A stretch of 41,408 nucleotides of DNA from an uncultured Nitrosospira sp. (GTDB lineage Bacteria > Nitrospirota > Nitrospiria > Nitrospirales > Nitrospiraceae), in NCBI GenBank assembly GCA_900696515.1, contig CAADGK010000026.1:1-41408 (forward strand), read 5' to 3'. The translations under genes and the position numbers were made by a program. Below are positions 21,227 through 41,261 of this stretch, piece after piece (positions within the stretch are counted from its first letter, which is position 1; each line of letters begins with the position of its first letter). The notes below the pieces were generated by a model. The model did not search any database. It was not told the DNA's origin and saw nothing but the letters and a program-made list of their open reading frames with translations.

Positions 21227-21374
21227 CGGCACATCCTTTCTTGAGCACGTCGGACGAGTCGGTGTTCCACGAATCATTGATACTGCGGCTGCTGACTTAC
21301 TAGCTGCTACAAAACTCGGTTAGGACATCACCCTCTGTTGAAATATGACGGAAGGACGTATGACACGATACACC

Positions 21375-21501
21375 AACAGGATGATCAAAAAAGCCGTCCA
21401 GCAAGGCCGCAGTAAGTGAAGAGGTGAGGCGTACGCTCCGGTACGTTGAGCCTCTGAACGATGCGAGAACGCCGCTGGCGGCATTTTTCAGCATCCTGTT
21501 A
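21375..21501. repeat. Nested inverted-repeat element between the CHAT and metacaspase genes
   Basis: Outer arms AACAGGATGATCAAAAAAGC (from 21375) and GCATTTTTCAGCATCCTGTT (21481-21500) pair almost completely, with inner arms around CGTAC/GTACG (about 21430-21445) giving a second, nested hairpin. The whole element is about 127 bp. It resembles a dispersed, non-coding palindromic repeat that I associate with Nitrospira genomes. Its right arm overlaps the stop codon of the metacaspase gene (21499-21501), so it could end transcription or form the 3' end of that mRNA. Confidence 0.65.
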
Positions 21502-22335
21502 GCTCAGAAATTGGCAGTCAAACGAGGTGCGCTGTCCTTCCAGTTGCGGAATCTGATCAAAATCTTCCGCCTTCAGTTTGACCAGGGTTCGTCGGTGCAA
21601 TTCTCTATAGGTCAGCTTGCCCCCAGCTTCTTTGATCGACTCGACAAGGTAATAGGTGAGAGCCCCGTTATAGGTCCCACCGATATGCGCATCGGCGGAG
21701 GTTTGGGTAGCGCGACAGCCGGTAATCAGCATCTCCGGAATAGCGGCATGAACAACATCGCTCTTTCGCTTGCGACCACGGGGGGCCTTGCCCAGCTGGC
21801 CGCGCACGGTTCCACGGAGCCTCCGGCCTGATTCGGTGGCCATGAGATCGAGCGGACAGGGAAGGAACCGCTCTCTTCTGGAGGCATCAGGCGGAGTGAC
21901 GGCACGCGTAATGGTGCCGGAGTGGCAGCAGTCCATGATCACCGTGAGGTTGACGCCCTTCCGAAGCTTGTTGAGCGTCTTTCGAAGCCAATCGTCACGT
22001 AACGTATCCTTCCAATCCAAATCGGTCGGGCATAGAATTTCATCACGTCGATCCGCCTCATCGCCGTTGTCATCCGGCACATTCGATCCATGTCCGGAAT
22101 AATGAAACAGCAAGGTGTCGCCTTTCTTCCCGCTCTTGATGAGCTTCTGAATAGCCGCCTGCATAGCCTTCTTCGTGGCCTTCAGGTCGGTGAGGGTCGT
22201 GATATCCTTGTCCTGGAAACCGTAATAGGTCTTCAACACTCCGCTCAGATTCTTGACGTCATTGACACACCCGTTCAGATCCGACCCGGGAACTTGATAC
22301 TTGTTGATCCCGATAAGCACCGCTCGTTTCGCCAT
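21499..22335 (-). CDS. Metacaspase (caspase-family cysteine protease)
   Basis: A 278-residue caspase-like protease. The start at 22335 follows AAAGGAGAGACC; a GTG or ATG further up at 22359 is less likely. It has KRAVLIGINKY at the N-terminus, catalytic His in FHYSGHGSNVPDDNGDE (about residue 82) and catalytic Cys in IMDCCHSGT (about 137), then a basic segment (RGRKRKSD) where the p20 and p10 parts of such enzymes are divided and often self-cleaved, and a p10-like part with ITGCRATQTSADAHIGGTYNGALTYYL split across two strands. It has no signal peptide, so it is cytoplasmic. Metacaspases cut after Arg or Lys, unlike animal caspases. It is upstream of, and in the same direction as, the CHAT-hydrolase gene, with a repeat element between them. 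Confidence 0.9.
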   Translation of the reverse strand: MAKRAVLIGINKYQVPGSDLNGCVNDVKNLSGVLKTYYGFQDKDITTLTDLKATKKAMQAAIQKLIKSGKKGDTLLFHYSGHGSNVPDDNGDEADRRDEILCPTDLDWKDTLRDDWLRKTLNKLRKGVNLTVIMDCCHSGTITRAVTPPDASRRERFLPCPLDLMATESGRRLRGTVRGQLGKAPRGRKRKSDVVHAAIPEMLITGCRATQTSADAHIGGTYNGALTYYLVESIKEAGGKLTYRELHRRTLVKLKAEDFDQIPQLEGQRTSFDCQFLS

Positions 22336-22718
22336 GGTCTCTCCTTTCCGTGGTGACATGTTGCTTTAAACAGATGAGTACAATACGAGGATTCCATATC
22401 TTCCTCGCTCATTGAGCAAGCCGCTTGCCATTTCACATACGGGAAGATGAGGCACACGAGATCACACCTAGGTTGTACTACATGAATGGAGAATACAGTA
22501 TTCTTATGTTCCCTGGAAGTCTCCAGGGAACACATTCTCGTTTACGGATGGGATGGATACATCAGAACAGAGGATCCAAAAGGATACAACCCTGTATCGA
22601 AATAGGTACAGCTACCTCTGGTTCAGCCCCGGGTACGGCTGTCGTCTTGCCCACCGCCGGACGTCTGACTCCATCAAAAGCGTAGAGAGTTGAGCTGCTA
22701 TCTTCCGAGCAAGACACG
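22336..22718. other. Intergenic stretch with a perfect 11-bp hairpin
   Basis: TGTTCCCTGGA (22507-22517), loop AGTC, TCCAGGGAACA (22522-22532) is a perfect stem between the metacaspase start and the 3' end of the methyltransferase gene. There is no T-tract on either strand, so it may be a weak terminator for the methyltransferase transcript or an operator for the metacaspase promoter. No gene is seen here. Confidence 0.45.
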
Positions 22719-25845: not shown

Positions 25846-26277
25846 ATGTCCAAACATGCCAAGGAAATGGGGATTCTGAAAGAGCATTTGGGGAAACACC
25901 AGCTCAAATTTACGCGCCAGCGCGAGTTGATTCTCGACGCCTTTTTGAAACAAGAGCACATCACGGCCGAGGAAATGTATCACCAGCTAGCCCGCAGAGA
26001 TCCCCATCTCGGGCTTGCAACCATTTACCGGACCCTCAACCTGTTCTGTGAAGCCGGACTGGCTCAAGCCCGGCACTTTGGGACCCAGACTCAATATGAC
26101 AATGTGTCCCATAAGGGCCATCACGACCATCTCATCTGCACCGGCTGCGGCAAGATCGTGGAATTTGAAAACTGCGATATCGAACGGCTCCAAGAGGAGG
26201 TCGCGACCCAAAACGGTTTTACGATCACCACCCACCGGCTCGAACTCTACGGGCTCTGCTCCCGCTGCCGTCATTGA
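25846..26277 (+). CDS. fur: Fur-family transcriptional regulator
   Basis: A 143-residue metal-responsive repressor. The N-terminal winged helix has LKFTRQRELILDAFLKQ, HITAEEMYHQLARRDP and the recognition helix LATIYRTLNLFCEAGL. The dimerisation and metal-binding part has KGHHDHLICTGCGKIVEF with the regulatory-site ligands and the first Cys pair, and CSRCRH at the C-terminus with the second Cys pair of a structural zinc site. It is a Fur/PerR/Zur family member; iron is the likely metal because a ferric importer with a Fur-box-like promoter site follows 82 bp downstream and TonB/ExbBD lie close by, but zinc or manganese is not excluded. The -35 of the importer promoter overlaps the stop codon of this gene. 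Confidence 0.9.
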   Translation: MSKHAKEMGILKEHLGKHQLKFTRQRELILDAFLKQEHITAEEMYHQLARRDPHLGLATIYRTLNLFCEAGLAQARHFGTQTQYDNVSHKGHHDHLICTGCGKIVEFENCDIERLQEEVATQNGFTITTHRLELYGLCSRCRH

Positions 26278-26325
26278 CCCTCAGAAATGTTTCTGGTATT
26301 CTTTTTGATATAGCTTATCAATTTC
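26274..26325 (+). promoter_or_regulatory. Promoter and Fur-box-like site for the iron ABC importer
   Basis: TTGACC (26274-26279), a 17-bp spacer and TATTCT (26297-26302) form a sigma70-type promoter whose -35 overlaps the stop codon of fur. The expected start point falls inside GATATAGCTTATCAATTTC (26307-26325), which matches the 19-bp E. coli Fur consensus GATAATGATAATCATTATC at 13 positions and contains the perfect repeat TTGATA-N5-TATCAA. This is where a repressor would sit. Confidence 0.65.
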
Positions 26326-26359: not shown

Positions 26360-27427
26360 ATGTTGAAATCCCTTCACCAGGCTTTGGGGACTACTCTGCA
26401 CGCCCAGTCCCGTCGATTCATTGGCGTCCCCCCCGCGTGTCTTGTTCTGCTCTTGTGCATGATGCTCCCGAGCTCCGCCCCCGCGGCCGACCAATTGACC
26501 GTCTATTCGGGTCGAGCCGAACGATTGATCAAGCCGGCTCTGGATGAATTCACCGCGAAGACCGGCATCCGCATCGCGTTGTTGTCCTCCGGTACGACCG
26601 AACTGGTGAATCGAATGAAAGCGGAGGGGTCCAGAAGTCCGGCCGATGTGTTTATCACGAACGACGCCGGAAGTCTGGAACTCGCCCGTGCGGCCGGGCT
26701 GTTTCGACCGCTGAGTATGCGCGAAGTCGAGCGGGCCATCCCTCCGCAGTTTCGCGCCACGGATAACAGCTGGATCGGCCTGTCCGGTCGCTTTTGGATC
26801 ATTGTCTACAACACCAAGATGGTGAAACCGGACCAGATCAAGTCACTGCTGGACTTAGCCGATCCGACCTGGAAGGGGAACCTCGCCATTCCGAACGCCG
26901 GCAGCGAATATTTACAAGCAGGCGTCTCGGTGGTCCGGGCCAGTATCGGTGATGATCGCGCCAAGAAGTTCCTTGAGGGGCTTCGAGACAACGCTGGGAC
27001 TCAGGTCTACCAAAAGAGCTCCCAGATCGTCGAGGCGGTCGCCAAAGGCCAGGTCGCACTTGGGATCGTCAATCACTACTACGTCTATCGTCACCTGGCC
27101 GCCCAACCGGCTTCTCCCGTAGCGGTCTTGATGCCGGATCAACAGGAAGGCGGGATGGGGGCCATTATGAACGTCGCCGGCATCGGCGTCCTGAAACACA
27201 CCCCTCGTGTAGAACAGGCCAAACTGCTCGTCGAATTTCTCGTCGCACAGGCAGGTCAGAAGATCTTCGCCGATCTGGACAAGGAATACCCGCTCCATCC
27301 CGAGGTCCAAGCTGACCCTGCCCTTGTCGACCGAAAGAGTTTTCGAGCGGCCATGGTACCCTTGGCCAAGCTCGCCGAACTCCGAGCGCCTACACTTCGA
27401 CTCATCGAACAAGTGGGCATGCGGTAG
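26360..27427 (+). CDS. Fe(3+) ABC transporter substrate-binding protein (FutA/FbpA type)
   Basis: A 355-residue periplasmic ferric-binding protein. After a long signal region (residues 1 to about 42, ending LPSSAPAADQ) the mature part begins LTVYSGRAERLIKPALDEF and has the family segments SGTTELVNRMKAEG, PADVFITNDAGSLELARAAGLF and, near the C-terminal lobe, GIVNHYYVYRHL, whose Tyr pair is the ferric iron ligand of FbpA/FutA proteins. The AAAAAGG ribosome binding site gives a clear start. It is followed 16 bp later by the permease gene and then the ATPase gene, so it is the first gene of a three-gene importer operon. The upstream Fur-box-like promoter suggests induction under iron limitation. 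Confidence 0.92.
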   Translation: MLKSLHQALGTTLHAQSRRFIGVPPACLVLLLCMMLPSSAPAADQLTVYSGRAERLIKPALDEFTAKTGIRIALLSSGTTELVNRMKAEGSRSPADVFITNDAGSLELARAAGLFRPLSMREVERAIPPQFRATDNSWIGLSGRFWIIVYNTKMVKPDQIKSLLDLADPTWKGNLAIPNAGSEYLQAGVSVVRASIGDDRAKKFLEGLRDNAGTQVYQKSSQIVEAVAKGQVALGIVNHYYVYRHLAAQPASPVAVLMPDQQEGGMGAIMNVAGIGVLKHTPRVEQAKLLVEFLVAQAGQKIFADLDKEYPLHPEVQADPALVDRKSFRAAMVPLAKLAELRAPTLRLIEQVGMR

Positions 27428-27443
27428 CACCGAGTGACCCGTG

Positions 27444-29024
27444 ATGACCGTACGCCCATTATCGCTCTCTTCCCTCCAATTGGCTGCCCTGGCCAGCGCG
27501 GCACTGGTCCTCTTCCCATTGATCTATATCATATGCTTGGCCCTCTCGGCCGATACGGCAGTCTGGTATCGACTGTGGACGACTCGCGTACCTGAACTCC
27601 TCTGGAACACGATTTCGTTGGCCGGTGCGGTTGTACTCCTCTCGCTTGTATTGGGGGTCTCGACTGCCTGGATCGTCACCCGTTGTGAGTTTCCCGGGCG
27701 CAGGCTCTGGGAAGTCGCCCTTGTGCTTCCCCTCGCCATGCCGACGTTCGTGCTGGCCTATGTCTTCAACTATCTGCTGGGATTCGGCGGGCCGATCGAG
27801 CAACTCTGGCAACTGCTCGCCGGCCCCCAGGCCAGACTCTTCTCGCCGCAAAGCTTTATGGGCGTCACCTTGGTCATGGCGCTCGCGACATTCCCGTTCA
27901 TCTATTTGCTCACACGAAGCGCACTTCTTGATTTCAACGTGTCGTTTGAAGAAGTCGCCCGTACCTGTGGCGCCTCTCCCCTGAGACGGATCCTCTCTGT
28001 GACCCTCCCGCTGTTGCGACCGTCCATCGCCGCCGGAGCCGCATTGGTCATTCTGTACGTGGTCTCCGATTTCGGGGCCGTATCCCTCTTGCGCTATCAA
28101 ACACTGACCTACGCCGTATTTCAACAAATGACCGGTCAGTTGGACAACCAGGCTGCGAGTATTTTGAGCGTCTTGCTGGTCGTCCTGGCACTCCTGTTCT
28201 TGTCAACCGAACGATGGTTTCGCCGCAAAAGTCGTTTTTACCAAACCGCCGGTCGCTACCGCGCCCCGCAGCGGATTCGTTGCAGCTGGTTCCAGACCCT
28301 AGGTCTGACGGCGTCCCTCGCCATAATCATGGGAGCCGCCTTTGGTGCTCCGGTCTGTCTCTTGATCTCATGGAGCCTCTCTCCTGAGGCCCTCGCCATG
28401 CTTGATGCGCGATTCTTCGGCTTCGTCTGGAACAGTGCCTTGCTTGCGACTCTGGCTGCCACCGTCGGCCTGTTCGTCGGACTCCCGTTGGCCTATCTGG
28501 CAAGTCGCAAACCCACATGGCTCAACACCGGCTGCCTACAGGCCGCCTATGCCGGATATGTGCTGCCGGGACCGGTCGCAGCCCTCGCCGTACTGGTCCT
28601 CTGTCTCAACCTGATGCCGATCGTCTATGGAACGGTGATTGTATTGATCATCGCCTATGTCTTGCACTTTCTTCCGGCCGGCCTCCAATCCCTCGAACCG
28701 GCAATCCAGCAGATCACCCCCAATCTTGAAGAAGTCGCCCGCACCCTTGGACTGAGCGCCCGCGAAACCGTGCGACAGGTCACGCTGCCGCTCATCCGTA
28801 ACGGCATCATCGTGGCCTGGGTCCTGATCTTTCTTCAAACAATGAAGGAGCTGCCTGCCACGCTCTTGCTCCGACCGGTTGGGTTTGACACCTTGGCGAT
28901 CCGCGTCTGGCTTGAAGCGAGTGAAGAGTACTATCAGCTGGCGGCCCCCTCCGCGCTCCTGATCGTGCTGGTCGGTCTGCCGGCCCTTGGCTTGTTACTC
29001 TCCCGCGATTGGCGCGCCGCGTAG
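27444..29024 (+). CDS. Iron ABC transporter permease (FbpB type, two fused halves)
   Basis: A 526-residue inner-membrane permease in which two six-helix halves are fused. Each half carries an EAA loop for docking the ATPase: EVARTCGASPLRRILSVTLP at about residue 170 and EVARTLGLSARETVRQVTLP at about 430. The first ATG at 27444 is preferred over an adjacent GTG. The fused FbpB/CysTW-like architecture is usual for ferric importers. It lies between the binding-protein and ATPase genes with short gaps (16 and 9 bp), so all three are almost certainly co-transcribed. Confidence 0.92.
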   Translation: MTVRPLSLSSLQLAALASAALVLFPLIYIICLALSADTAVWYRLWTTRVPELLWNTISLAGAVVLLSLVLGVSTAWIVTRCEFPGRRLWEVALVLPLAMPTFVLAYVFNYLLGFGGPIEQLWQLLAGPQARLFSPQSFMGVTLVMALATFPFIYLLTRSALLDFNVSFEEVARTCGASPLRRILSVTLPLLRPSIAAGAALVILYVVSDFGAVSLLRYQTLTYAVFQQMTGQLDNQAASILSVLLVVLALLFLSTERWFRRKSRFYQTAGRYRAPQRIRCSWFQTLGLTASLAIIMGAAFGAPVCLLISWSLSPEALAMLDARFFGFVWNSALLATLAATVGLFVGLPLAYLASRKPTWLNTGCLQAAYAGYVLPGPVAALAVLVLCLNLMPIVYGTVIVLIIAYVLHFLPAGLQSLEPAIQQITPNLEEVARTLGLSARETVRQVTLPLIRNGIIVAWVLIFLQTMKELPATLLLRPVGFDTLAIRVWLEASEEYYQLAAPSALLIVLVGLPALGLLLSRDWRAA

Positions 29025-29033
29025 AGACCCATC

Positions 29034-30161
29034 ATGAACACACCGGCACAGCCCAGACCAATGGATAATGAGCAACTCTTCACTCGCGCTCACCACTCCA
29101 CTCAGACGGCTTCGATTGTGGAGCTTCGCTCCATCTCCTGCGCCTACGACTCAAATCGACCCGCCGTACATGACATGTCATTCTCCGTCAGGGAAGGTGA
29201 AATCCTCTGCTTACTTGGCCCATCCGGCTGCGGGAAAACCACGGTTCTCCGAGCCATCGCTGGATTCGAGCCTGTACGGTCCGGAGAAATTCTTTTGTCG
29301 GGTCGGATGGTCTCATCCCCCTCGGAGACGGTTCCGACGGAACATCGCCGCATCGGTATGGTCTTTCAGGAATACGCCCTCTTTCCGCACCTGCGTGTCG
29401 CCGACAACATCGCCTTCGGACTCAACCACCTGCCGCGAACAGAGCGAAGGCGGCGTGTGGAGGAGATGCTGTGCCTGACCGGGTTGGAGGGGTTTGAGCG
29501 TCGATACCCCCATGAGTTATCAGGGGGACAGCAGCAACGGGTGGCCCTCTCACGGGCCCTGGCGCAAAATCCGGTGTTACTCTTACTGGATGAGCCGTTC
29601 AGCAATCTGGACCCCGACATGGCCGGTCGCATGCGCCAAGAAGTCCACGCGCTGTTACGTCGGATGAAAACCACCAGCATCATGGTCACGCATGACCATG
29701 AGGAAGCCTTTGCCATGGCCGATCGCATTGCGGTGTTGAACCACGGGATACTCGAACAGATCGACTCCCCCGAACTCATTTACCATCTCCCGACCACACG
29801 GTTCGTGGCCGACTTTGTCGGCCAAGCGGACTTCATTGCCGGCCGGATCCAACAGGGGTTGGTTCACACTGAGTTGGGAACGTTTCCCAATACCATCAAC
29901 GGATCGGAAGGAGACCCTGTCGCGGTCATGATTCGCCCGGACGATGTGCATCTCGTGCCCAACCTATCCGCCGAACCCAGAATCGTGGCCAGGCAATTTC
30001 GAGGGTCTGAAAATTTGTATCGGGTTCGACTTCCTTCCGGTCAGATTGTCCACAGCAGTGAAAGTTCGACCAGCGTCTACCAAGAAGGCACCGCTGTCGA
30101 ACTCCGTGTTTCGGCCACCCATACCGTGTTGTTTCCTGCCGAAGCGCCCCCTCGTCACTAG
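29034..30161 (+). CDS. Iron ABC transporter ATPase (FbpC type)
   Basis: A 375-residue cytoplasmic ATPase that powers the importer. Walker A is GPSGCGKTT (about residue 61), the signature LSGGQQQRVALSRAL (about 162), Walker B LLLLDEPFSNLD (about 180) and the switch His in VTHDHEEA. The C-terminal third (from about 260) is a TOBE-type regulatory domain with VAVMIRPDDVHLV. This order is that of the FbpC/PotA subfamily. The N-terminal 28 residues before the first beta-strand are longer than usual; a later start is possible. It starts 9 bp after the permease gene. About 128 bp of apparently empty DNA separates it from exbB. Confidence 0.92.
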   Translation: MNTPAQPRPMDNEQLFTRAHHSTQTASIVELRSISCAYDSNRPAVHDMSFSVREGEILCLLGPSGCGKTTVLRAIAGFEPVRSGEILLSGRMVSSPSETVPTEHRRIGMVFQEYALFPHLRVADNIAFGLNHLPRTERRRRVEEMLCLTGLEGFERRYPHELSGGQQQRVALSRALAQNPVLLLLDEPFSNLDPDMAGRMRQEVHALLRRMKTTSIMVTHDHEEAFAMADRIAVLNHGILEQIDSPELIYHLPTTRFVADFVGQADFIAGRIQQGLVHTELGTFPNTINGSEGDPVAVMIRPDDVHLVPNLSAEPRIVARQFRGSENLYRVRLPSGQIVHSSESSTSVYQEGTAVELRVSATHTVLFPAEAPPRH

Positions 30162-30289
30162 CGACACAGGACCAGAATGGCTGCAGGTGAAGATTGACAG
30201 TCTCCCCGGAAATCTGGCATGGATGAACAAGCGCTGAGGTCTCCAACCCCACCAGGCATGAGCCCCCTTCCACACTATAAGGAGTCGTG

Positions 30290-30721
30290 ATGGACGCATT
30301 GAAAGACGTCATTGATTACGGGGTGATCGGTCTCTTACTGGTGCTCAGTGTGTGGTCCGTGGCCGTGGCCATCGAACGGTGGCTCTTCTACAAGCGTATC
30401 GACCTCTCTCAGTTTTCCAGCGCGCAGCTGCTGGAAATCACGCTGACCAAGCGTCTCGTCGTCATCGGAACCGTCGCGGCCAACGCCCCCTATATCGGCC
30501 TCCTCGGAACCGTCCTCGGAATTATGTTAACCTTTCATACGATGGGGACGTCCGGCACGATGGCCGTGAATACCATCATGATCGGGTTAAGCCTGGCATT
30601 GAAGGCGACCGCGGTTGGTCTGCTGGTCGCCATTCCCTGTGTCGTCATGAATAACCTCCTGCGTCGGCGCGTCACCGAAATCTTGACGGCCTATAGGGCA
30701 CAACATGGATCGGAACATTGA
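30290..30721 (+). CDS. exbB: TonB-system energizer ExbB
   Basis: A 143-residue inner-membrane protein of the ExbB/MotA family, part of the proton-driven motor that energises TonB. The start at 30290 has AAGGAG with 5-bp spacing, better than the adjacent GTG. Three membrane segments are visible: residues 8-28, then around NAPYIGLLGTVLGIMLTF, the family's hallmark with the conserved GLLGTV, and LSLALKATAVGLLVAIPCVVM. At about 140 residues it belongs to the short type-2 ExbB group. It overlaps exbD by 17 bp, so translation is coupled. Confidence 0.93.
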   Translation: MDALKDVIDYGVIGLLLVLSVWSVAVAIERWLFYKRIDLSQFSSAQLLEITLTKRLVVIGTVAANAPYIGLLGTVLGIMLTFHTMGTSGTMAVNTIMIGLSLALKATAVGLLVAIPCVVMNNLLRRRVTEILTAYRAQHGSEH

Positions 30722-31079
30722 TCAAATCAACGTGATTCCGCTTGTGGACGTGATGTTGGTCCTGCTGGTCATCGTGTTGACGACGGCCACTTTCATCAGT
30801 ACGGGCCAGATTCCCGTCAACCTTGCTAAAGCGAAAGCCGTCAGCGATCGGCAAGACGTGCCGATCGTGATTGCCTTAACGGCGGAAGGGAACTTGTTTG
30901 TTAATGATACGCCAGTCCCTGAGGGTGGTCTTTCCTCAGTCCTGAACTCTCGGCCTCGCGAGTCGGCAGTGATCGTTCGTGCAGATAAGGTCACGTTGCT
31001 CGAAAAGTTCGTGGGACTGGTCGATGAGATCCGTGGCCTGGGATTTCAGCAGGTAAGCTTGGAGGTCATTCGGCTCTAA
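30705..31079 (+). CDS. exbD: TonB-system biopolymer transport protein ExbD
   Basis: A 124-residue protein with one N-terminal membrane helix and a periplasmic domain. The helix contains the essential proton-carrying Asp in INVIPLVDVMLVLLVIVL. The periplasmic part, with VNLAKAKAV, VIALTAEGNLFVND and ESAVIVRADK, is the standard ExbD fold. It overlaps exbB by 17 bp and ends directly before the tonB ATG. Confidence 0.93.
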   Translation: MDRNIDQINVIPLVDVMLVLLVIVLTTATFISTGQIPVNLAKAKAVSDRQDVPIVIALTAEGNLFVNDTPVPEGGLSSVLNSRPRESAVIVRADKVTLLEKFVGLVDEIRGLGFQQVSLEVIRL

Positions 31080-31931
31080 ATGCAAGACGGACGGCGACCT
31101 GCTCTTGATTATTCCAACTCCGCGACCACTGGCTGGCTTCTGTCATGCCTGGTGCATGGCGGCTTGGCCCTTGCCACCATCCTTTTCATGCAGCATATAC
31201 ATCTGGCTCCACAAGGGGAACCGTTCCAATGGAATGTGGCGATGGTGGCAACGCTGTCGCCTTCAGAAAAAGCGGCTGCTCCCAGTGAACCAACGACCCC
31301 GCCAACCAAGCGTACCCCTTCATCGATTCGATCGGCTCAACGTATCGAATCGACCGCGGTTGCTTCAGCTCCACCGACGCCGACAGCTGATCTCCCTCCG
31401 CCGTCCCAAGAGGTGGACCCGCTTCAGAACGAATCACGTGCACCACGCGCGATGTCGGCGGTACCGGCTCATCCGTCATCGCAGCTGGTGCCATTGTCTG
31501 AACAGGCACCGACTCCCTCTACCGAAATCAATCAGTCACCCGGATCACCATCGGATATGAGTCCCGCTTCTGACCCTGTACTCGCCACGAATACTCCAGT
31601 GGCATCAGCCGGTTCACTGCGATCGGTCAACGTCGACTATGGATGGCTCGCTGCGCTCATGGCGCAATGGATCGAGGGGCTCGACAAACGTTACCCCGCA
31701 GGATTGCGTGCCGAAGGGATTGAGGGAAAGGTCACGCTGATAGCGCTCTTGCACGAAGATGGCTCGCTGACCAACGTGCGCATCGCCAAGGGTTCAGGGA
31801 ACACAGCATTGGACCAGGTTGCATTGGAAGACGTTAGAAACGGCCCGCCGGTGAAATTCGCCCATCCGCTTCAACGCCCTCAGATATCGGTGAAATTCTC
31901 GATCAGCTACGACCTGAAGACGACCCAGTAA
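31080..31931 (+). CDS. tonB: TonB energy-transducing protein
   Basis: A 283-residue protein that links the ExbBD motor to outer-membrane receptors. It has an N-terminal membrane helix (about residues 17-38, LVHGGLALATILFM), a long Pro-, Ser- and Thr-rich periplasm-spanning region (about 60-180) and a C-terminal TonB domain (about 195-283) with GIEGKVTLIALLHEDGSLTN, SGNTALDQVALEDVR and the last strand ISVKFSISYDL. Its ATG follows the exbD stop with no gap (TAAATG). No TonB-dependent receptor lies in the window, so its partner receptors are elsewhere. The convergent apbE gene ends 15 bp beyond it. Confidence 0.93.
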   Translation: MQDGRRPALDYSNSATTGWLLSCLVHGGLALATILFMQHIHLAPQGEPFQWNVAMVATLSPSEKAAAPSEPTTPPTKRTPSSIRSAQRIESTAVASAPPTPTADLPPPSQEVDPLQNESRAPRAMSAVPAHPSSQLVPLSEQAPTPSTEINQSPGSPSDMSPASDPVLATNTPVASAGSLRSVNVDYGWLAALMAQWIEGLDKRYPAGLRAEGIEGKVTLIALLHEDGSLTNVRIAKGSGNTALDQVALEDVRNGPPVKFAHPLQRPQISVKFSISYDLKTTQ

Positions 31932-31945: not shown

Positions 31946-32971
31946 CTATGGGGCGCGCAACCGATCCCGGATCCCGGAAGACACCACCAGGTACCCTTTC
32001 ACATCGATGATGATGGCTTCAACACCCGGTAGCCGTTCTACCAACGCCATCCCTTCTTCAGGTCCCAGCACAAAAATACCTGTATCCAACCCGTCGGCCA
32101 TCGTACCGTCCTTGGCGATGACCGTCACGCTCTGACATCCTCGTGCCGGCTGCAACGTGTGTGGGTCTAAGATATGATGATACCGCACGCCATCCTGTTC
32201 GAAGTACCGTTCGTAGTCCCCGGCCGTTGAAATCGCTTCATCATGTAAATCGATGATGCCGATCAGCATTCCCTCCTCACGGGGATGTCTGATCCCGACG
32301 GGAAACCCGCTTCGTTCAGAAAGCACACCGAAGGCTTTCACGTCTCCGGATAAGGCGACTACTCCCCCTTCGGCACCTGCTCGTTTCATCACCTCGACCG
32401 CCCGATCGGCGGCATAGCCTTTTCCGACCCCACCGACATCAATGCGCATTCCCTTATGCGGCAAGTAAATCGTCCGTGCTGTCTTATCAATTTGAATGCT
32501 TGTCCAATCAACGAGCGATTTCAATCGTTCGAGGGTTGGCCCATCGGGAATCTGCTGTCGCCCGGTGACGCTCCACGCTTCGATCGCAGGTCCCAGAGCA
32601 ATATTGAACCCGCCATGAGTGAGTTGCGCCATTTCCAGAGATCGAACAACCAGCTCAAATGTCTCGCGACTGACTTGGACAGACCGGCGACCAGCTTCGG
32701 CATTCACCTGCGAGAGCTCACTGTCAGGACGCCAGGTGCTTAATAATTGTTCAAGACGCTTAATCTCGTCGAAGGCCACCTGGACGGCGCGATCACCTAT
32801 GTCTTTGTCGGAAGCCAGAGCTGTGACAGTGACGAGGGTTCCCATGTGCATCTGGGCACGTTTTGAAATAGTGGGTGGAGAAGATGGGCGTATTCCCGCA
32901 CAACCTTCCGGCATGATCAGGATAAGAACCATGATCACCAGATGGCTGATCGTGGACTGAGCGATCTTCAT
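31946..32971 (-). CDS. apbE: FAD:protein FMN transferase (ApbE), lipoprotein
   Basis: An enzyme of about 341 residues that attaches FMN covalently to a Thr or Ser of target proteins, using FAD and magnesium, on the periplasmic side. I start it at MKIAQSTISHLVIMVLILIM, which gives a signal peptide and a lipobox ending in GCAG; a longer frame reaches 33160, but it overlaps the previous gene by far and adds nothing recognisable. Family motifs are HMGTLVTVTALASD, WRPDSELSQVNAEAG, GGVGKGYAADRAVEVM, VALSGDVKAFG and the metal-binding HILDPHTLQPARG with DGLDTGIFVLG. It is preceded 13 bp upstream by a lipoprotein gene in the same direction. A candidate target, an FMN-binding protein with a TGAT motif, is in the divergent operon. 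Confidence 0.92.
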   Translation of the reverse strand: MKIAQSTISHLVIMVLILIMPEGCAGIRPSSPPTISKRAQMHMGTLVTVTALASDKDIGDRAVQVAFDEIKRLEQLLSTWRPDSELSQVNAEAGRRSVQVSRETFELVVRSLEMAQLTHGGFNIALGPAIEAWSVTGRQQIPDGPTLERLKSLVDWTSIQIDKTARTIYLPHKGMRIDVGGVGKGYAADRAVEVMKRAGAEGGVVALSGDVKAFGVLSERSGFPVGIRHPREEGMLIGIIDLHDEAISTAGDYERYFEQDGVRYHHILDPHTLQPARGCQSVTVIAKDGTMADGLDTGIFVLGPEEGMALVERLPGVEAIIIDVKGYLVVSSGIRDRLRAP

Positions 32972-32984
32972 TGTGCGATCCCCC

Positions 32985-33596
32985 TTACCACCAGTGCCGG
33001 CAAAAGTATCTCGGATACCGCGGGTACGGCATAACTTCATAGAGCCGTGCTTCGACCCGAGCCGGCAAGGGAAGCGTTTCAGCCATCGAGCTGCCCCTGA
33101 GCATCGGATACCGGCCATCGAGAAAGTCCCGTGCCTGGGTAGTCTCGGATTGGTCGGCAACCACAGAGACCACGATCATCCGTCCATAACGCGGCGAATC
33201 GATTTCGAATCTCCAAGTCCCCACATAGCTAATGGCCGTGGCGCCGACGGGAAAAGTCATCGATACATCCGCCATGGACCTGAAGGGTCCCCCAGCACTC
33301 TGTACCCGCGTCAATTGATACGTCCCAGACGGCAGGGCGGCAGTAAAATATCGATCGTGCGAGTCGATCTCGACTTGAAATCGCTTGTGCGACGTTTGAT
33401 TCTCCAACTCCAAAAATTGCACGGCTGGTGAATACCACCGAGATCGGTCACCGGCCAAGATAATGACAGCTCTCCCAACAACCAGGTTCTCCGTCACTTC
33501 ATTTGGATCGACCAATGGAGACAACTGGGTTACACAGCTCCACAAGCCTCCAACCGTAATTAACAGCCCTAGCCCCTGGATCACACCGAGTTTCAT
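32985..33596 (-). CDS. Hypothetical lipoprotein upstream of apbE
   Basis: A 203-residue protein starting MKLGVIQGLGLLITVGGLWS with a Cys at about residue 21 that could serve as a lipobox (GLWSC). I do not recognise the family with certainty. Segments such as FTAALPSGTYQLTRVQSAGG resemble the beta-sandwich of DUF2846/PEGA-type domains, where a strand and a GTY turn recur. The C-terminus is rich in Tyr, Arg and Trp (YPRYPRYFCRHWW). It is the first gene of a leftward pair with apbE (13 bp apart), driven by a promoter next to a Fur box, so it may help in flavin-protein assembly or anchor another component. Confidence 0.7.
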   Translation of the reverse strand: MKLGVIQGLGLLITVGGLWSCVTQLSPLVDPNEVTENLVVGRAVIILAGDRSRWYSPAVQFLELENQTSHKRFQVEIDSHDRYFTAALPSGTYQLTRVQSAGGPFRSMADVSMTFPVGATAISYVGTWRFEIDSPRYGRMIVVSVVADQSETTQARDFLDGRYPMLRGSSMAETLPLPARVEARLYEVMPYPRYPRYFCRHWW

Positions 33597-33652
33597 ATTT
33601 ACTCAAAAAGTATACGAAATTTCACAGGCTTCGGCATCCCTGTTTTCCGGAA

Positions 33653-33701
33653 ATTATATCTTGACAGCAAAGCGCATGTCAGGATATTAATAATCGTTCT
33701 C
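33653..33701. promoter_or_regulatory. Divergent promoters with a Fur box between the apbE pair and the porin operon
   Basis: Rightward: perfect -35 TTGACA (33661-33666) and, 18 bp on, -10 TATTAA (33685-33690). Leftward: -35 CTGACA (33682-33677) and, 18 bp on, a perfect -10 TATAAT (33658-33653). GATATTAATAATCGTTCTC (33683-33701) agrees with the 19-bp Fur consensus at 15 positions. It covers the rightward -10 and directly abuts the leftward -35, so a bound repressor should block both directions. Confidence 0.72.
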
Positions 33702-33731
33702 AATTTCATGACGAGAGATACGCTGAACACC

Positions 33732-33908
33732 ATGGCAATTGCCAAGACTTCTTCCCAGGAACCTTGCTCGCCCCTCGAAACCCGCTGTGAATGCGGACAG
33801 TTGATTGCCAAGGTGTGCGGGCAAGGCCTGGAGCTGAAGTGCAAGCGATGCAAGCGTATCGTCGTGATCCCCTTTTCTTCCATCGAAGGCTGGGGAACGG
33901 CAATCTAA
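33732..33908 (+). CDS. Small Com-like zinc-finger protein
   Basis: A protein of 58 residues (66 if the ATG at 33708 is used). RCECGQLIAKVCG followed by LELKCKRCKRIVVIPF has two Cys pairs, CxC and CxxC, like the zinc-binding Com family of Mu-like phages and similar small proteins. The transcript of the Fur-linked promoter is expected to start near 33697, which would leave the 33708 ATG almost without a leader, so I prefer 33732. It is the first gene of the rightward unit, 122 bp ahead of the porin. A regulatory or metal-sensing role is possible but unproven. Confidence 0.65.
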   Translation: MAIAKTSSQEPCSPLETRCECGQLIAKVCGQGLELKCKRCKRIVVIPFSSIEGWGTAI

Positions 33909-34030
33909 GAATTCTCTCAAACGGGAGGAATGACCGTCATGTAGTCGTGCTAGTTTTCGATGTACCTGAAGACCAGAGACCAGCGAGTCCCGAGTCAGTC
34001 TATAACCTTACTTAATCAGGGAGGATACCG

Positions 34031-35461
34031 ATGAAGATGCGGTTACTCCTCGGGGCTCTTTCGATTCTTGCGCTGTCGGTCACTCCGGTCTTCGCAGAAG
34101 AGAGTCTTGAGGAACGAGTGAAAAGACTCGAAGAAGCGTTACAGAAAGCACAGGAACGTGAATCGCGAGGGGTTCCTGTGGAAAGTTCGCAGCCTAAGCA
34201 ATACCCGGTGCCGACCGGGCCAATGACCGATATTAGGGTCGGACGTCAAGGAGAGGAAAAAACCTCTCTGGGATTCGGTTCCACAGGGTCAGGAAAATTG
34301 ATCTACGCAAAGCCATTCTTGAGCGCTCCGAAGGCCACGATCGGCGGTTATGCGGACGTGATGTATAACATCCTGTCTCGTCAAAATTTGGACAATCCGA
34401 GCCGCAATAGTTTCGGTCAGCAGCGATTGGTGCCGTTCATCTATGCCGATATCACCGATCGTGTCAAATTTGCAGCAGAAATTGAGATTGAACGTGGTGG
34501 AACCAATTCACCCCAAGGCGATGGTTCGATTCAGGTCGAGTTTGCTCAACTGGACTATCTGGTCGACGAGCGAATCAACATCCGAGGCGGCATCCTCCTC
34601 ATGCCGGTCGGTAAGTTTAACCTGCTCCATGATTCGCCGTTAAATGATCTGGTTGATCGGCCGATGGTATCGAGGCTCATCATTCCAAGCACCTGGTTCG
34701 AAGCCGGCGCCGGCATCTATGGAACCTTCTATCCAACTGCGCTGTCGAAGATCGATTACGAACTCTATGCGGTCAACGGGATGACCCAAACCGCTGGCGC
34801 GATCACGGACTTGGGTATCCGAAGTGCACGCGGAAGTGTGTCACGCGATCGCGATGACAGCAAAGCCATCGTCGGTCGTTTGGCCTTTAGTCCCATGTTA
34901 GGGATTGAAATCGCCGGATCCGGCTACCATGGGCAATATAAGCCCTCGACTGCGACGATCGGCTCAGGGAATATCGATATCTTCGCAGTAGATTGGACCT
35001 TACAACGTGGTCCATTCGAGCTGATCGGCGAAGCGGCATGGACCAGAATCAGCAACAACAACGCGACCGGTGTGGCAAACAACCCCATCGGTCCTGCCGG
35101 CATGTTCGGCTACTACGTCCAGGGAAACTATCACTTTATGCCGGAAATCCTGAAGAGGCTGGCACCCAGTCACTTCTCCGATGCCTCCACCTTCACGGCA
35201 ACGGTGCGCTGGGAGCAAATCGACACCGATACAGACAACCGTACGGTTGGCGGAGCAAACAGACTGGGCAATCGGCGAGAGCTTGATCGGTTGACGGTGG
35301 GTCTGAATTTCAGACCCGTCGAGGACATGGTCTTTAAAATCAACTGGCAGTATAACACCCAAAATGGAGGCGTAGGTCTCACACCGGCAGGAGACCTCGG
35401 TAATGCCAGTAGTCCGATGGATGGAGACGGGTTTCTGTTCCAAGCAGCGACCTACTTCTAA
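34031..35461 (+). CDS. Outer membrane porin with N-terminal coiled coil
   Basis: A 476-residue protein with a GGGAGG ribosome binding site and a signal peptide (MKMRLLLGALSILALSVTPVFA). The mature N-terminus is a coiled coil (ESLEERVKRLEEALQKAQERE) like that which anchors OprP/OprO and OprB-type porins to peptidoglycan. The rest is a repeating run of amphipathic strands such as RVKFAAEIEIERGG, INIRGGILLMPVGKFN and VFKINWQYN, and the C-terminus ends in ATYF, the Phe needed for insertion in the outer membrane. The first strand, IGGYADVMYNI, also fits a phosphate-selective porin-like or DcaP-like family. The solute is unknown. It is part of the rightward Fur-linked unit and is followed by a hairpin and a lipoprotein gene. 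Confidence 0.85.
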   Translation: MKMRLLLGALSILALSVTPVFAEESLEERVKRLEEALQKAQERESRGVPVESSQPKQYPVPTGPMTDIRVGRQGEEKTSLGFGSTGSGKLIYAKPFLSAPKATIGGYADVMYNILSRQNLDNPSRNSFGQQRLVPFIYADITDRVKFAAEIEIERGGTNSPQGDGSIQVEFAQLDYLVDERINIRGGILLMPVGKFNLLHDSPLNDLVDRPMVSRLIIPSTWFEAGAGIYGTFYPTALSKIDYELYAVNGMTQTAGAITDLGIRSARGSVSRDRDDSKAIVGRLAFSPMLGIEIAGSGYHGQYKPSTATIGSGNIDIFAVDWTLQRGPFELIGEAAWTRISNNNATGVANNPIGPAGMFGYYVQGNYHFMPEILKRLAPSHFSDASTFTATVRWEQIDTDTDNRTVGGANRLGNRRELDRLTVGLNFRPVEDMVFKINWQYNTQNGGVGLTPAGDLGNASSPMDGDGFLFQAATYF

Positions 35462-35477
35462 CTGTACAGCGAAGGAG

Positions 35478-35502
35478 GCTCCCCGCCGTCTCGGCGGGGA
35501 GC
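35478..35502 (+). terminator. Hairpin between porin and lipoprotein gene that holds the next ribosome binding site
   Basis: GCTCCCCGCCG (35478-35488), loop TCT, CGGCGGGGAGC (35492-35502) is a perfect 11-bp stem 16 bp after the porin stop codon. No T-tract follows. The GGGGAG in its right arm is the only Shine-Dalgarno-like sequence for the lipoprotein ATG at 35510, so the hairpin probably lowers expression of the downstream genes relative to the abundant porin, either by partial termination or by hiding the site. Confidence 0.6.
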
Positions 35503-35509
35503 TCATAAC

Positions 35510-35986
35510 ATGACACAGTTTCTTGAGCGAATGAACGTGTACATTCTCCCGTTTCTTCTGGTTGGAAGTGTGGGAGGATGTGCTTTGATGACCAGCGGCA
35601 TGGAACAACGGGCTACCACCTGCAGCTATGACCAAGCCTGGGACGCGGCCATCGAAGTCGTCAAGGATCGGGCAGCCGATACGAATGATAAAGATGCTGG
35701 ATTGATCGTCACACACTGGCTCGAAATCCCGATGCCCGGCCGAAAGTACGGTGCCTTTCGCCGGGAAATCACTGACAGCAAAGATCGATCCCGCCTCACA
35801 CTCCGAGTGAAGCGAGCGGACGACGGGACAAGAATCTTTTTCATCGAAGAACGGCAGAGCTGGGTCATGCGGGGTGGGTCACGTCTCTTCGGCTGGGCTC
35901 CGACTGATCCATCCGTAGATGTCATGCGAGATATCCAAAATCGTCTTGATGCCAAGCTGCAGGAGTACGGATGTTCAGTTATCTAG
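35510..35986 (+). CDS. Hypothetical lipoprotein in the porin/FMN operon
   Basis: A 158-residue protein with a signal peptide and lipobox (VGSVGGCAL, Cys about 24). The N-terminal part could also start at the second Met (35531). The mature part, with TCSYDQAWDAAIEVVKDR, then LIVTHWLEIPMPG and LTLRVKRADDGTRIFFIEERQSW, resembles small lipoproteins with a BamC-like helix-strand domain, a similarity I judge as weak. It overlaps the FMN-binding protein gene by 16 bp, so the two are coupled. Confidence 0.75.
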   Translation: MTQFLERMNVYILPFLLVGSVGGCALMTSGMEQRATTCSYDQAWDAAIEVVKDRAADTNDKDAGLIVTHWLEIPMPGRKYGAFRREITDSKDRSRLTLRVKRADDGTRIFFIEERQSWVMRGGSRLFGWAPTDPSVDVMRDIQNRLDAKLQEYGCSVI

Positions 35987-36660
35987 GAAGACTTTTTGCC
36001 TGTTTCTTGATCGCGACAGTGCCTTGTCTCACCACTCCCCTATCGGCTGGAGCTGAAAAGGTATGGGATAACGATCTGAAGCGTTATCTCACCGAAGCTG
36101 AATTAAACCATGCCGAAGTCTTCATGTCGGAAGACGAGGCCGTGAAGATCGCCCTCCCGAAATCGCAACGTATTCGCAAGGACGTCATCCAGCTGACCCA
36201 GGAAAAGAAAGATCTGATTGAACAGCGGATCGGATGGAAATTTCCGGAAGAGACTTTCGAAGTCTATATCGGCGAAACAGGAGATAAGATCGACGGCTAC
36301 GCCATGGTCCACAATACCATCGGTAAGCACAAGCATATGACGTACATGGTCGGTGTCGATGCAACCGGGGCCTGCTCCGACGTCGAACTGTTGGTATTCC
36401 GTGAAGCCAGAGGAAGTGAAGTCGGACGTAAACGATTCAATGTGCAATACGAAGGCAAGACGGTCTTGGACCCGATCCGGATCAATAAGGACATCATCAA
36501 TATCACCGGTGCAACCATGTCCGTCCGATCGATCAGTGCCGGCGTGAAGCGCGTCCTTGTCTTGGTCGATGAGTTCTATTTGAAGCCTGCCGGGCTCGGA
36601 AGCGACACGCTGGCTGCCAAGAAGGACAAGGGATTCCTGCCGTCAATATTCGGCAATTAG
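35971..36660 (+). CDS. Periplasmic FMN-binding-domain protein with a flavinylation-like TGAT motif
   Basis: A 229-residue exported protein (signal peptide MFSYLGRLFACFLIATVPCL, cut near AGAEK). It has the FMN-binding domain of the NqrC/RnfG family: an N-terminal half with FEVYIGETGDKIDGYAMVHN, then YMVGVDATGACSDVELLVFREARGSEVG in two strands, and INITGATMSVRSI near residue 180. The SGAT/TGAT Thr (Thr182) is the residue to which ApbE links FMN in the family; the consensus Asp six residues before it is Ile176 here, although Asp174 is close. An ApbE gene lies in the divergent unit from the same Fur-linked intergenic region. So this is likely a flavin-carrying electron-transfer protein in the periplasm. 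It overlaps the preceding lipoprotein gene by 16 bp. Confidence 0.85.
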   Translation: MFSYLGRLFACFLIATVPCLTTPLSAGAEKVWDNDLKRYLTEAELNHAEVFMSEDEAVKIALPKSQRIRKDVIQLTQEKKDLIEQRIGWKFPEETFEVYIGETGDKIDGYAMVHNTIGKHKHMTYMVGVDATGACSDVELLVFREARGSEVGRKRFNVQYEGKTVLDPIRINKDIINITGATMSVRSISAGVKRVLVLVDEFYLKPAGLGSDTLAAKKDKGFLPSIFGN

Positions 36661-36685
36661 TCACAGCGGACCCAGCGTCCCGAAC

Positions 36686-37204
36686 ATGCGAAACTTCAAC
36701 CAGAAATTCAGGCTGCGTGACTCGGATCGCCATATTCGCTTGCTGTACACGTTGTTTTTATTGTTGATGTTCGTGGGATTCTGCTTCTCATTTTTTTGGG
36801 CGCACAGCATGACGGGATTATCCCCACAAGGCATTGCCGAACACTATCGCGGATCGGATGCCACGTTCGGCGAACCCATGTCGTTCCGAGAGCTGGCGGA
36901 AATCACCCATTTTCATCTTTTTACCATGCCGGTCGTCTTCATGATTTTGATCCACGTGATGTACCTGACCAACGCCAGCCATACCCTCAAAGCCGTCGTG
37001 ACCTGGGCCGGATTTGGTGGAGTCATGCTAGATCTGCTGTCGCCCTGGCTCATCAGCTATGTCTCTCCCATGTTCGTCGTCTCCATGCTCACGGGTGACA
37101 TGCTGATGACCCTCAGCTTTCTGGTCATGATGGTCGTTCCGCTGTATGAAATGTGGGTGCTCGGACAGCCGCTTATGGGAGGGAAACGTCCACAAGAATC
37201 GTAA
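36686..37204 (+). CDS. Four-helix membrane protein with histidines (possible heme-binding partner)
   Basis: A 172-residue inner-membrane protein with about four hydrophobic segments: residues 20-40, 78-96, 104-126 and 128-158. His75, His77 and His90 lie at the start and middle of the second helix (ITHFHLFTMP, FMILIHVMYL), and His40 ends the first helix, so b-type heme or metal binding is possible though unproven. No CxxCH motif exists. It is not a family I can name. It starts 25 bp after the FMN-binding gene and ends before a strong terminator, so it is the last gene of the rightward unit and may pass electrons from the quinone pool to the flavin protein. Confidence 0.72.
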   Translation: MRNFNQKFRLRDSDRHIRLLYTLFLLLMFVGFCFSFFWAHSMTGLSPQGIAEHYRGSDATFGEPMSFRELAEITHFHLFTMPVVFMILIHVMYLTNASHTLKAVVTWAGFGGVMLDLLSPWLISYVSPMFVVSMLTGDMLMTLSFLVMMVVPLYEMWVLGQPLMGGKRPQES

Positions 37205-37251: not shown

Positions 37252-37292
37252 AGAGCCCGGAATCACACAAGTGGTTTCGGGCTCTTTGTTTT
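37252..37292 (+). terminator. Rho-independent terminator of the porin/FMN operon
   Basis: AGAGCCCGGAATCAC (37252-37266) and GTGGTTTCGGGCTCT (37271-37285) pair over 15 positions, including two G-U pairs, around the loop ACAA and are followed by TTGTTTT. It lies about 50 bp after the membrane protein stop codon and before the HD-GYP gene. Confidence 0.88.
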
Positions 37293-39040: not shown

Positions 39041-40300
39041 TTATGCCCCCAATCTCGTGAAGACTGGAAGAACCGGAGCCCAGACCGGATTGATGAGTCT
39101 TTCACCGCCCTCGGTGTAAGACATAAACAACCCTGCGAAGCGCTGGTCAGGATCGTGGAGGATGTCCACTAACCGCTGCACTTCCCAGAGCACGTCTTTC
39201 GACTCAACCTTAATATCGACCGTCTGACCTGGCATGACGGCACCTTCTTTATCCATGGTCAGCCCGGCACTTGCAACCAGCTCCTGCGGATAGTTCGGAT
39301 CCACCTTAGCAGCACCAACCTTGTTGGTGAAGCGAATACCTGCCGTGGTGAACTCTCCGATGCTGATCGGCTGAGTGCCGTTGTTGGTCACATGAAGATT
39401 CATGCGCAACGCACGACCAGGAACATCGTACTCCGCATGCGTAACTTCAATGGCCAATGGATTCGGCTTCACAGGCAACGGCTTCACCTTGGTTTCACCG
39501 GCCTGCAGAGGAACACTGATCGGGTGCTTGGACTCGGCCGCCAAATACCCAACGACCACGACGACCAACACGAACACGAGCATTGCGGCCCCGACCTTAC
39601 GATCGATCGGGTCCAACAGAATCTCATCTCCGTAAGCCGCAAGGACGCGGGCGCGAACCAAGTACATCGGGCGAATCATGAACCAACCTACCCAAAAACA
39701 TGCGACCACCACCCAGAACAGGTGCCACATGATTCCTGTCATACCGCCCATGGTCTCGGAGTCGAACGTCTCACCGGTGAGGGTCTTAACCGGGTTCGTA
39801 AAGTCTTCATAACGACCCGTGATGTCCATCCATCCACCTGGACCAGCGACCGGACCGGCCTCCTTGATCGCGAGCATAGGATGAATGTGGTGATGGCCAG
39901 GGAGTCTCGCCTTAAGCTTGACGACGTATTCATAGTCGCCGCCAATATCAAGCGGACCCGAGTTAAACATCGGAACACCGTTCATCTTCGAGCTCAAACG
40001 AACGAACACCGAGCTCGGAGACCCGACGTTCAAGAACGTGCGGTGTGGTTTCACGACGGCGCGTGGCCAGTCTTCCGACAAATGGAACCTGCCGCGCAAT
40101 TCAGTTACGTCGTTGACCTTTGTCGACTTACCAACCCATTCCGTATCATACCAGTTCACAGTACGCATCCGCAGGAATGGTTCCTGCGAGCGCTCTCCAT
40201 GAGCAAATGCAGGAGTCACATCAACCACAGGCGTGAACGCCAGCGTCGCAACTCCGCAGAAGCCCAGCACCCAGCGTTTAAAGGCTTGTTTGGCGTTCAT
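39041..40300 (-). CDS. amoB: Ammonia monooxygenase subunit B
   Basis: A 419-residue subunit of the copper membrane monooxygenase that oxidises ammonia to hydroxylamine. The signal peptide ends at TPAFA, making His34 the first mature residue (HGERSQEPF), which is the N-terminal copper ligand; the second site is in [10 protein letters not shown], where His138 and His140 correspond to His137 and His139 of PmoB. Two membrane helices follow ([18 protein letters not shown] and [18 protein letters not shown]), then the C-terminal cupredoxin domain. It overlaps amoA by 4 bp (ATGA) and is followed by a strong terminator. The sequence resembles comammox AmoB; no orthologue search was run. Confidence 0.95.
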
Positions 40301-41139
40301 GCTTTCCCCCCGATTTTTGCCTTGTCGCCATGTGCTAACGTGGCGTAGGCGAATACGTCGTAAACCTTCACCGTTCTCTGCCTGTCATCCGTGAAGTAGA
40401 AGTATGAGGTGCAGAAGAATTTCCCGAACTGCCACCACAGTACGTACACGAGTGACGATGCAAACGCAGAGAAGAAGGCCGAGATCATGGTGCTGTGACC
40501 ACCGAAGGTGCGCAGCGAACCAACCTCGATCATGCGGATGTACTCGGGAGTCCCGGTACGAACATACATGAAGCCCATGTAGTCAGCCCATGAAAGCAAT
40601 GAGCCGTCAACCACGAGCGGGGTGTGGCTATAACCAAATATTGGCCAGTTGCTCGGGTAGAATAGAATGGCGTACATCCATGCCCCGATCACGGCCGTCA
40701 GCGTCCAGTTCCTGGTCAGCAAGAGCGTAATATCCAAGACCAGCGCGCTAGGAAGCAAGGTCGCGGGCATGACGAAGTTCGGCGGATAATTGGACCACCA
40801 CCACCAAGAGGTATAGACGGCAATCCACTTTCCAAAACCGAGCGCCAGAATAGTAATCGTCGCGCCGAACGGCTGACGATAGTTCACCCAATTGTAGTAC
40901 TGGAGTGCAGCACAAAAGGTAATGGTTGTAATCGGAGTCACGATCGGCCACCATTGCCGATCCTTCCAGTCTAGCCAGAAGTCCCAGTCTCCACACAGCA
41001 ACGCGGTGTGCATGTGAAAAGTCCCGACGATGGTGATGAACAAAATCGGGATAAAATAGATGTGATCAATGTGCCGAGACATTGCCACGCCTTCCGGCGG
41101 CAATTTCGAGGCCTTGATAATTTCATCGGTTCTAAACAT
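40297..41139 (-). CDS. amoA: Ammonia monooxygenase subunit A
   Basis: A 280-residue membrane subunit of ammonia monooxygenase, the usual marker of ammonia oxidisers. I choose the ATG at 41139 ([17 protein letters not shown]) because GGAGG lies 9 bp before it; the first in-frame ATG at 41148 abuts that site. Family blocks are [76 protein letters not shown] and [24 protein letters not shown] in separate stretches. The combination of [20 protein letters not shown] and [16 protein letters not shown] reads as comammox Nitrospira rather than betaproteobacterial AmoA. It overlaps amoB by 4 bp. Confidence 0.95.
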
Positions 41140-41261
41140 AACTGACATCCTCCGTCATTCTAGCCGACCAGAAGCGGCCCGGACACTCGTCATTAACGAA
41201 ATCCCACGGACCAGCTTCTGATATCGACCAATGATACATGTGAACTACTGACCATTGCTGC
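41140..41261 (-). other. amoC-amoA spacer with a weak hairpin
   Basis: A 122-bp spacer between the amoC stop and the amoA start. CAGAAGC (41169-41175) can pair with GCTTCTG (41214-41220), but the loop is long. A Shine-Dalgarno GGAGG (minus strand, 41153-41149) serves amoA. No separate promoter is evident. Confidence 0.5.

Follow-up and report, generated by a model that had tools for sequence, protein, structure and literature searches.

The 41-kb window analysed here, a contig stretch from an uncultured member of the Nitrospiraceae taken in its full length, carries two divergent gene groups that meet at one intergenic region (Table 1). Encoded leftward are ApbE, a flavin adenine dinucleotide (FAD):protein flavin mononucleotide (FMN) transferase, and a lipoprotein (lipoprotein 1). 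A zinc ribbon protein, an outer-membrane porin, a second lipoprotein (lipoprotein 2), a periplasmic FMN_bind protein and a four-helix membrane protein, for which we use the name mem4, are encoded rightward. A first-pass annotation of this DNA had described these seven genes as a Fur-linked flavin redox module that reduces iron for the FbpABC importer nearby, and its coordinates and strands were all found to be right. One correction concerns the extent of the unit, which in its conserved form reaches leftward as far as fur and fbpABC. We propose, at a probability of roughly 0.6, that these genes form an electron-transfer module of the cell envelope which is repressed by Fur and serves reductive iron acquisition.

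On its right side the unit probably closes at a terminator-like hairpin. As this hairpin intervenes, the following HD-domain gene (likely start 37308) was rejected as an operon member, and no copy was found next to the module in the other families either. Further rightward lie amoB and amoA (39041–41148), the reason for regarding the source organism as a comammox-type Nitrospira.

Table 1. Features of the iron and flavin region, with positions counted from the first base of the window.
Feature	Position	Strand	Basis
fur, Fur-family regulator	25846–26277	+	Fur equivalog model, E 1.6e-30, under that model's cut-off
Fur-box-like site between fur and fbpA, 14/19	26307–26325	+	consensus scan
fbpA/futA-type ferric-iron-binding protein	26360–27427	+	similarity to solved Fe(3+)-binding proteins
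fbpB, ATP-binding cassette (ABC) permease	27441–29024	+	named from operon position and conservation
fbpC, ABC ATPase	29034–30161	+	sequence, conservation
exbB-like	30287–30721	+	sequence; kept across the genus
exbD-like	30705–31079	+	sequence; kept across the genus
tonB	31080–31931	+	TonB_C, E 5e-13
apbE, FAD:protein FMN transferase, lipoprotein-like N-terminus (from sequence)	31946–32971	−	PF02424, E 8e-83
lipoprotein 1, fast-evolving	32985–33596	−	sequence, conservation
promoter-like site, leftward, CTGACA-18-TATAAT, 11/12	33653–33682	−	sequence
promoter-like site, rightward, TTGACA-16-GATATT, 10/12	33661–33688	+	sequence
Fur box GATATTAATAATCGTTCTC in the divergent gap, 15/19	33683–33701	+	consensus scan
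Com-like zinc ribbon, CxCG...KCxRCKR	33708–33908	+	motif
outer-membrane porin, Porin_O_P-like	34031–35461	+	PF07396, E 4e-7
lipoprotein 2, BamC N-domain-like helix-grip fold	35510–35986	+	predicted structure
periplasmic FMN_bind protein, signal peptide (by eye)	35971–36660	+	PF04205, E 2e-6, over cut-off
codon of Thr182, predicted FMN attachment site	36514–36516	+	TGAT motif
mem4, four-helix membrane protein	36686–37204	+	no family match
terminator-like hairpin, 15 pairs	37252–37285	+	sequence

Elsewhere in the window, the left contig end (5–2122) encodes an RTX calcium-binding repeat protein, followed by an ABC-transporter-type protein (2963–4885). A protein of 1070 aa that has a CHAT domain and an LCAT-like region adjoins a caspase-domain protein at 18065–22359, both on the minus strand.

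Conservation of the module and its Fur box

Among 59 Nitrospirales genomes, several of them incomplete and counted without correction for relatedness, the FMN_bind protein and mem4 were both present in 49 and both missing from the same 10. Five of these ten are without any ApbE (G003, G008, G009, G032 and G053), and ApbE is present in G029 and G041. The sole ApbE and FMN_bind genes of the other three (G005, G017 and G027) form a separate second pair of a different type, which we take, judging from the lengths, to be NQR-linked. A weak mem4 match in G027 is a c-haem relative of the protein, described below, and was not counted as mem4. The source genome also has a second ApbE/FMN_bind pair outside the window (G000:C93:89950–93797), a candidate that is probably NQR-linked.

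Within a sample of 40 loci from four families (f1–f4), the order porin, lipoprotein 2, FMN_bind protein, mem4 was kept in 37; in the three exceptional loci, which have another arrangement, the best lipoprotein 2 match precedes the best porin match. Family f1 loci have apbE beside the module in 20 of 20 cases and the zinc ribbon in 19, both are found in all 11 loci of f3, and neither was found within reach of the module in f2 and f4. The least conserved part is lipoprotein 1, found in 13 of the 20 f1 loci. The porin is a conserved neighbour throughout the order and in sister orders, and fur and FbpABC likewise adjoin the module across families and orders. The first-pass annotation had made its interpretation depend on conservation of these genes as a unit, and both co-presence and gene order clearly bear this out.

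In the source genome amoBA follows mem4 downstream at a distance of about 1.8 kb. This vicinity brings to mind targets of the electrons other than iron, either a different metal, for example copper for the adjoining ammonia monooxygenase, or an oxidised substrate in the periplasm, for example oxidised proteins as in MsrPQ. Our search for related contigs returned at least 80 loci, all from Nitrospira and near relatives going by their titles, apart from one labelled Nitrosospira. Of 80 retrieved loci, however, only 7 had amo genes within reach of the module. As the module is also found in families and orders without amo linkage, and as the regulator and importers that accompany it are those of iron, we regard such a substrate as very improbable.

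Control by iron is suggested by the intergenic region itself. A scan of the whole window with a 19-base Fur consensus at a threshold of 14/19 gave two sites against 0.4 expected. The pattern GATAWTRATAATCGTTMTC, allowing up to two mismatches, occurs a single time in the 4.59-Mb genome, at the divergent gap, compared with 0 occurrences for the control. The box in this gap overlaps the −10 element of the rightward promoter-like site and abuts the −35 element of the leftward one; promoter-like sites are no more numerous here than chance would give, and their position is the informative part. With the box lying over or next to both sites, Fur could repress both units. An identical box or a one-base variant is found at the same position in most loci of the genus, similar boxes precede the porin in two f2 loci, and in several loci of sister orders Fur boxes stand ahead of the porin, the zinc ribbon, fur or the fusion gene discussed below; in some loci no Fur box was seen at the scan threshold. 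The Fur-like site noted earlier thus proves to be a conserved box with a pattern unique in the genome, which supports the view that the module is under Fur control.

Predicted flavinylation and the outer-membrane components

The predicted attachment site named in the first-pass annotation, Thr182 of a TGAT motif, was recovered at residues 179–182 of the FMN_bind protein, and [ST]GAT is present in 40 of 40 orthologues. The locus combines an ApbE-family transferase bearing an export signal with an exported FMN_bind domain bearing [ST]GA[ST], as expected for extracytosolic flavinylation. That ApbE would act on this particular protein is supported by the co-occurrence of the two and by gene fusion in other orders. 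Membership of an RNF or NQR complex was considered and rejected: RnfG models reach about 22 bits on the FMN_bind protein against cut-offs of 102–205, no other RNF/NQR subunits lie beside the gene, and its neighbours are instead the porin, the lipoprotein and mem4.

Lipoprotein 2 consists of one domain only, some 130 residues long, and its profile gave no match among PDB sequences. The top 13 Foldseek matches of its predicted structure are all BamC (best E 1.6e-5), and comparison with 2yh6_A gave a Z score of 11.0 and a root-mean-square deviation of 3.4 over 102 aligned residues, a likeness of fold only. This fold suggests an outer-membrane partner of the porin, and the two proteins probably work together there.

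The Cys residues and RCKR of the zinc ribbon are invariant across 12 diverse members, three of which matched the Mu Com family (PF10122) under the curated cut-off with a best E of 0.03; in Pfam, Com and zinc-ribbon matches were found below threshold only. Mu Com is a translational activator, and an RNA-binding regulatory role of the zinc ribbon is therefore conceivable; it may regulate the operon. The Com-like protein accompanies the module across several orders.

The mem4 family and its fused partners

For mem4 no match was found in Pfam, NCBIfam or, by profile search, PDB sequences, and neither the protein nor the members of its alignment gave a Pfam match to NapH, MsrQ, PepSY, DsbD, NqrB/RnfD or DUF4405. 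Four histidines (H53, H75, H77 and H90) are invariant in Nitrospirales, and in the wider family H75 and H77 are invariant with Y54 and W157 nearly or fully so. Counted by eye, all 17 proteins with a partner bearing [ST]GA[ST] have H90, and none of the 16 others does; these others contain a c-haem motif, are paired with a protein lacking the flavinylation motif, stand alone or are fragments. In the structure model H75, H77 and H90 lie on one helix with H77 and H90 13 residues apart, a spacing that might in principle let two mem4 chains bind haem between their equivalent histidines. We consider mem4 to be probably a cofactor-bearing, quinol-linked inner-membrane protein, the cofactor being possibly haem b and the arrangement perhaps homodimeric.

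The c-haem relatives, of about 245 residues, have a CXXCH segment inserted between helices 1 and 2 (L081:7317–8045, L194:5124–5846 and L196:8451–9224; further loci L082, L083, L192, L193, L197, L198, L200, L202 and L203). A search of plasmids with such a relative gave no match. In L196 the neighbours of the relative are Rieske and cytochrome b genes, in L081 and L202 cytochrome c. One could accordingly picture the module as a general outlet for electrons in the periplasm, or a branch of respiration, which is de-repressed at low iron, with flavin, for instance, replacing iron-rich cytochromes, the more so as flavinylated proteins and cytochromes replace each other in related systems (PMC8238504). 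Such an outlet is nevertheless hard to reconcile with the tight link to Fur and iron importers over several orders and with a module that holds no terminal reductase gene, and it appears quite improbable to us.

At two loci (L194:3928–5107 and L201:7974–9202) mem4 relatives adjoin FMN_bind-like proteins without [ST]GA[ST], pairs that are possibly a non-flavinylated version of the system; L199 has a mem4 relative of this type without an FMN_bind-like neighbour.

Domains of ApbE and FMN_bind type are joined in one chain in sister orders of the same class (E 2e-85 and 5e-12 in L185). A search of the phylum gave eight genomes with such fusions (G171, G207, G211, G220, G227, G288, G295 and G381), in all of which mem4 is the next gene, overlapping the stop codon of the fusion in five. 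Porin, zinc ribbon and fur lie nearby in most of these loci, and FbpB/FbpC are adjacent in four. All eight chains carry a twin-arginine motif and a hydrophobic stretch between the two domains, of the RRxFL kind apart from one RRxVL and one RRxFM, and no obvious N-terminal signal was seen in any of them, both features being judged by eye. The junction looks like an internal signal for twin-arginine translocation (Tat), and ApbE would therefore sit in the cytoplasm, implying flavinylation there, in cis, ahead of export. Alternatively, the second domain could be expressed from a separate internal start instead of being exported by way of an internal Tat signal. Fusion loci with the junction motif are L184–L187, L189, L212, L217 and L218.

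The first-pass annotation had mem4 pass electrons to the FMN_bind protein. This is plausible and finds indirect support in translational coupling, in the histidine conservation tied to the partner's motif and in the c-haem relatives, which favour an electron-transfer role, while the transfer itself we infer. More broadly, mem4 may found a new transmembrane electron-transfer family, probably quinol-linked and perhaps homodimeric with haem b, whose members pair with ApbE-flavinylated proteins or, via the inserted c-haem domain, with cytochromes. In the sister orders ApbE would stay cytoplasmic and flavinylate its own C-terminal domain in cis, this domain then being exported by the internal Tat signal. 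We put this combined proposal forward tentatively, at somewhat less than even odds.

Proposed reductive iron acquisition and comparison with known systems

Starting from the observed gene content, its conservation, the Fur box, the ApbE/FMN_bind linkage and the swap of importers between lineages, the proposed route would run as follows. Under iron limitation Fur would release its repression and the module would be switched on, whereupon ApbE would attach FMN to Thr182 of the FMN_bind protein. Electrons would most likely pass from quinol through mem4 to this FMN. The porin or a TonB-dependent receptor would admit Fe(III), as such or bound to a ligand, to the periplasm, where the flavoprotein would reduce it. 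Import of the freed iron would fall to the FutA/FbpA-type ABC transporter in Nitrospirales and to FeoB in another lineage.

Of the possible substrates iron has the strongest support, given the ties of the module to Fur and iron importers, with a conserved Fur box at divergent promoters and a linked importer as expected for an iron reductase system. Among solved structures, Fe(3+)-binding proteins come closest to the FbpA-type protein (E 5e-50; 2pt1, E 3e-48), whose alignment keeps a YY pair ("nhyyvyrhl"). In a distant lineage (L191), fur, an FTR1-like frame, FeoB, the zinc ribbon, the porin, the FMN_bind protein and mem4 follow each other on one strand. FeoB (PF02421, E 3e-50) and the FTR1-like frame, recognised by its REGAE motif from translation only, occupy the place held by FbpABC elsewhere; FTR1 was present in 10 of 29 genomes.

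Several points weigh against reductive iron acquisition. FbpABC-type importers carry Fe(III), so that a reduction feeding them is not straightforward, and FeoB_C was over its cut-off in none of the 59 Nitrospirales genomes. Ten of these genomes are without the module, and f4 is without FbpABC and ApbE within the stretch seen. The AlphaFold2 model of mem4, with four long helices, is of moderate quality (mean predicted local distance difference test score 73.5); no Foldseek match had an E below 0.001, and a second aligner gave generic helical bundles only. Of the interpretation in the first-pass annotation, the unit is borne out, and Fur control and the ApbE/FMN_bind link are supported. Its weakest step is the feeding of FbpABC, against which the Fe(III) specificity of this importer stands; reduction must therefore serve ligand release and re-binding, or another importer. 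Such release and re-binding may occur, and parallels to it are FpvG of Pseudomonas (PMC6954188) and the reductive uptake of cyanobacteria that involves porins and FutABC (PMC7676907).

This specificity also leads to a view in which the module does serve iron uptake, with the flavoprotein and mem4 acting on the ligand or transporter cycle, such as ligand release or keeping another envelope component reduced, and not producing free Fe(II) in the periplasm. It would agree with the Fe(III) binding of FbpA-type proteins and the lack of FeoB over cut-off in the order, and it has a precedent in P. aeruginosa, where the iron reductase FpvG complexes with binding proteins and releases iron from pyoverdine (PMC6954188). 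FeoB beside the same module in L191 speaks against it, suggesting that ferrous iron is a product at least there, and overall we judge this version unlikely. If reductive iron acquisition holds, a Fur-controlled module in a group without FeoB names candidate iron-uptake genes for nitrifiers, which rely on iron-rich enzymes, and mem4 would be a new class of membrane partner for flavinylated proteins. The fusions would offer a possible route with flavin attachment before export. The gene set stays together order-wide and can be traced far beyond the order.

The open-licence PubMed Central (PMC) literature, taken without supplementary tables, gave no paper that brings together Nitrospira, ApbE and FMN-binding, or flavinylation, porin, Fur, iron and FMN-binding, and envelope iron transport of Nitrospira is little described in it. 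Clusters of flavinylation and iron-transporter genes and their repression by Fur are already published (PMC8238504). The flavinylation literature compared lists five uncharacterised membrane classes beside characterised ones (PMC8238504) and also DUF4405 (PMC11334425), and by sequence mem4 fits none of these. An ApbE and FMN_bind fusion with an internal RRxFL segment was not found described there.

Similar in composition are the PepSY-like/DUF2271 and MsrQ-like clusters implicated in iron assimilation (Meheust et al. 2021, PMC8238504), which likewise contain ApbE, an exported flavinylation substrate and a membrane protein, are linked to iron transporters or TonB and are in some cases reported to be controlled by Fur. 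The module described here differs in its four-helix mem4 without model match, in a stand-alone FMN_bind protein as substrate, in having a porin, a BamC-like lipoprotein and a zinc ribbon in the unit, and in an importer of FutA/FbpA type or FeoB. With the DUF4405/FezC membrane cytochromes (Huang et al. 2024, PMC11334425), among which FezC has been proposed to form haem sites by homodimerisation, mem4 shares the character of a small His-bearing membrane protein tied to flavinylation or iron, yet it has no DUF4405 sequence match and another arrangement of histidines, with H75, H77 and H90 on one helix.

The Pseudomonas FpvGHJK-FpvCDEF system for ferri-pyoverdine reduction (PMC6954188) also has an inner-membrane iron reductase, which works together with binding proteins of the periplasm and an ABC importer. 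In the module described here, an FMN_bind protein with its own ApbE is the partner on the periplasmic side, and the membrane protein belongs to another family. Reductive uptake in cyanobacteria (reviewed in PMC7676907) has in common a porin, a TonB system, a FutABC-type transporter and a proposed reduction at the inner membrane; the reductase proposed there is a respiratory oxidase (ARTO), and here it would be mem4 with the flavinylated protein. Fusion of ApbE to its substrate, finally, is shared with trypanosomatid fumarate reductase (PMC12052999) and with ApbE-DUF2271 proteins (PMC8238504), from which the sister-order chains differ in joining ApbE to FMN_bind through an internal RRxFL Tat-like segment.

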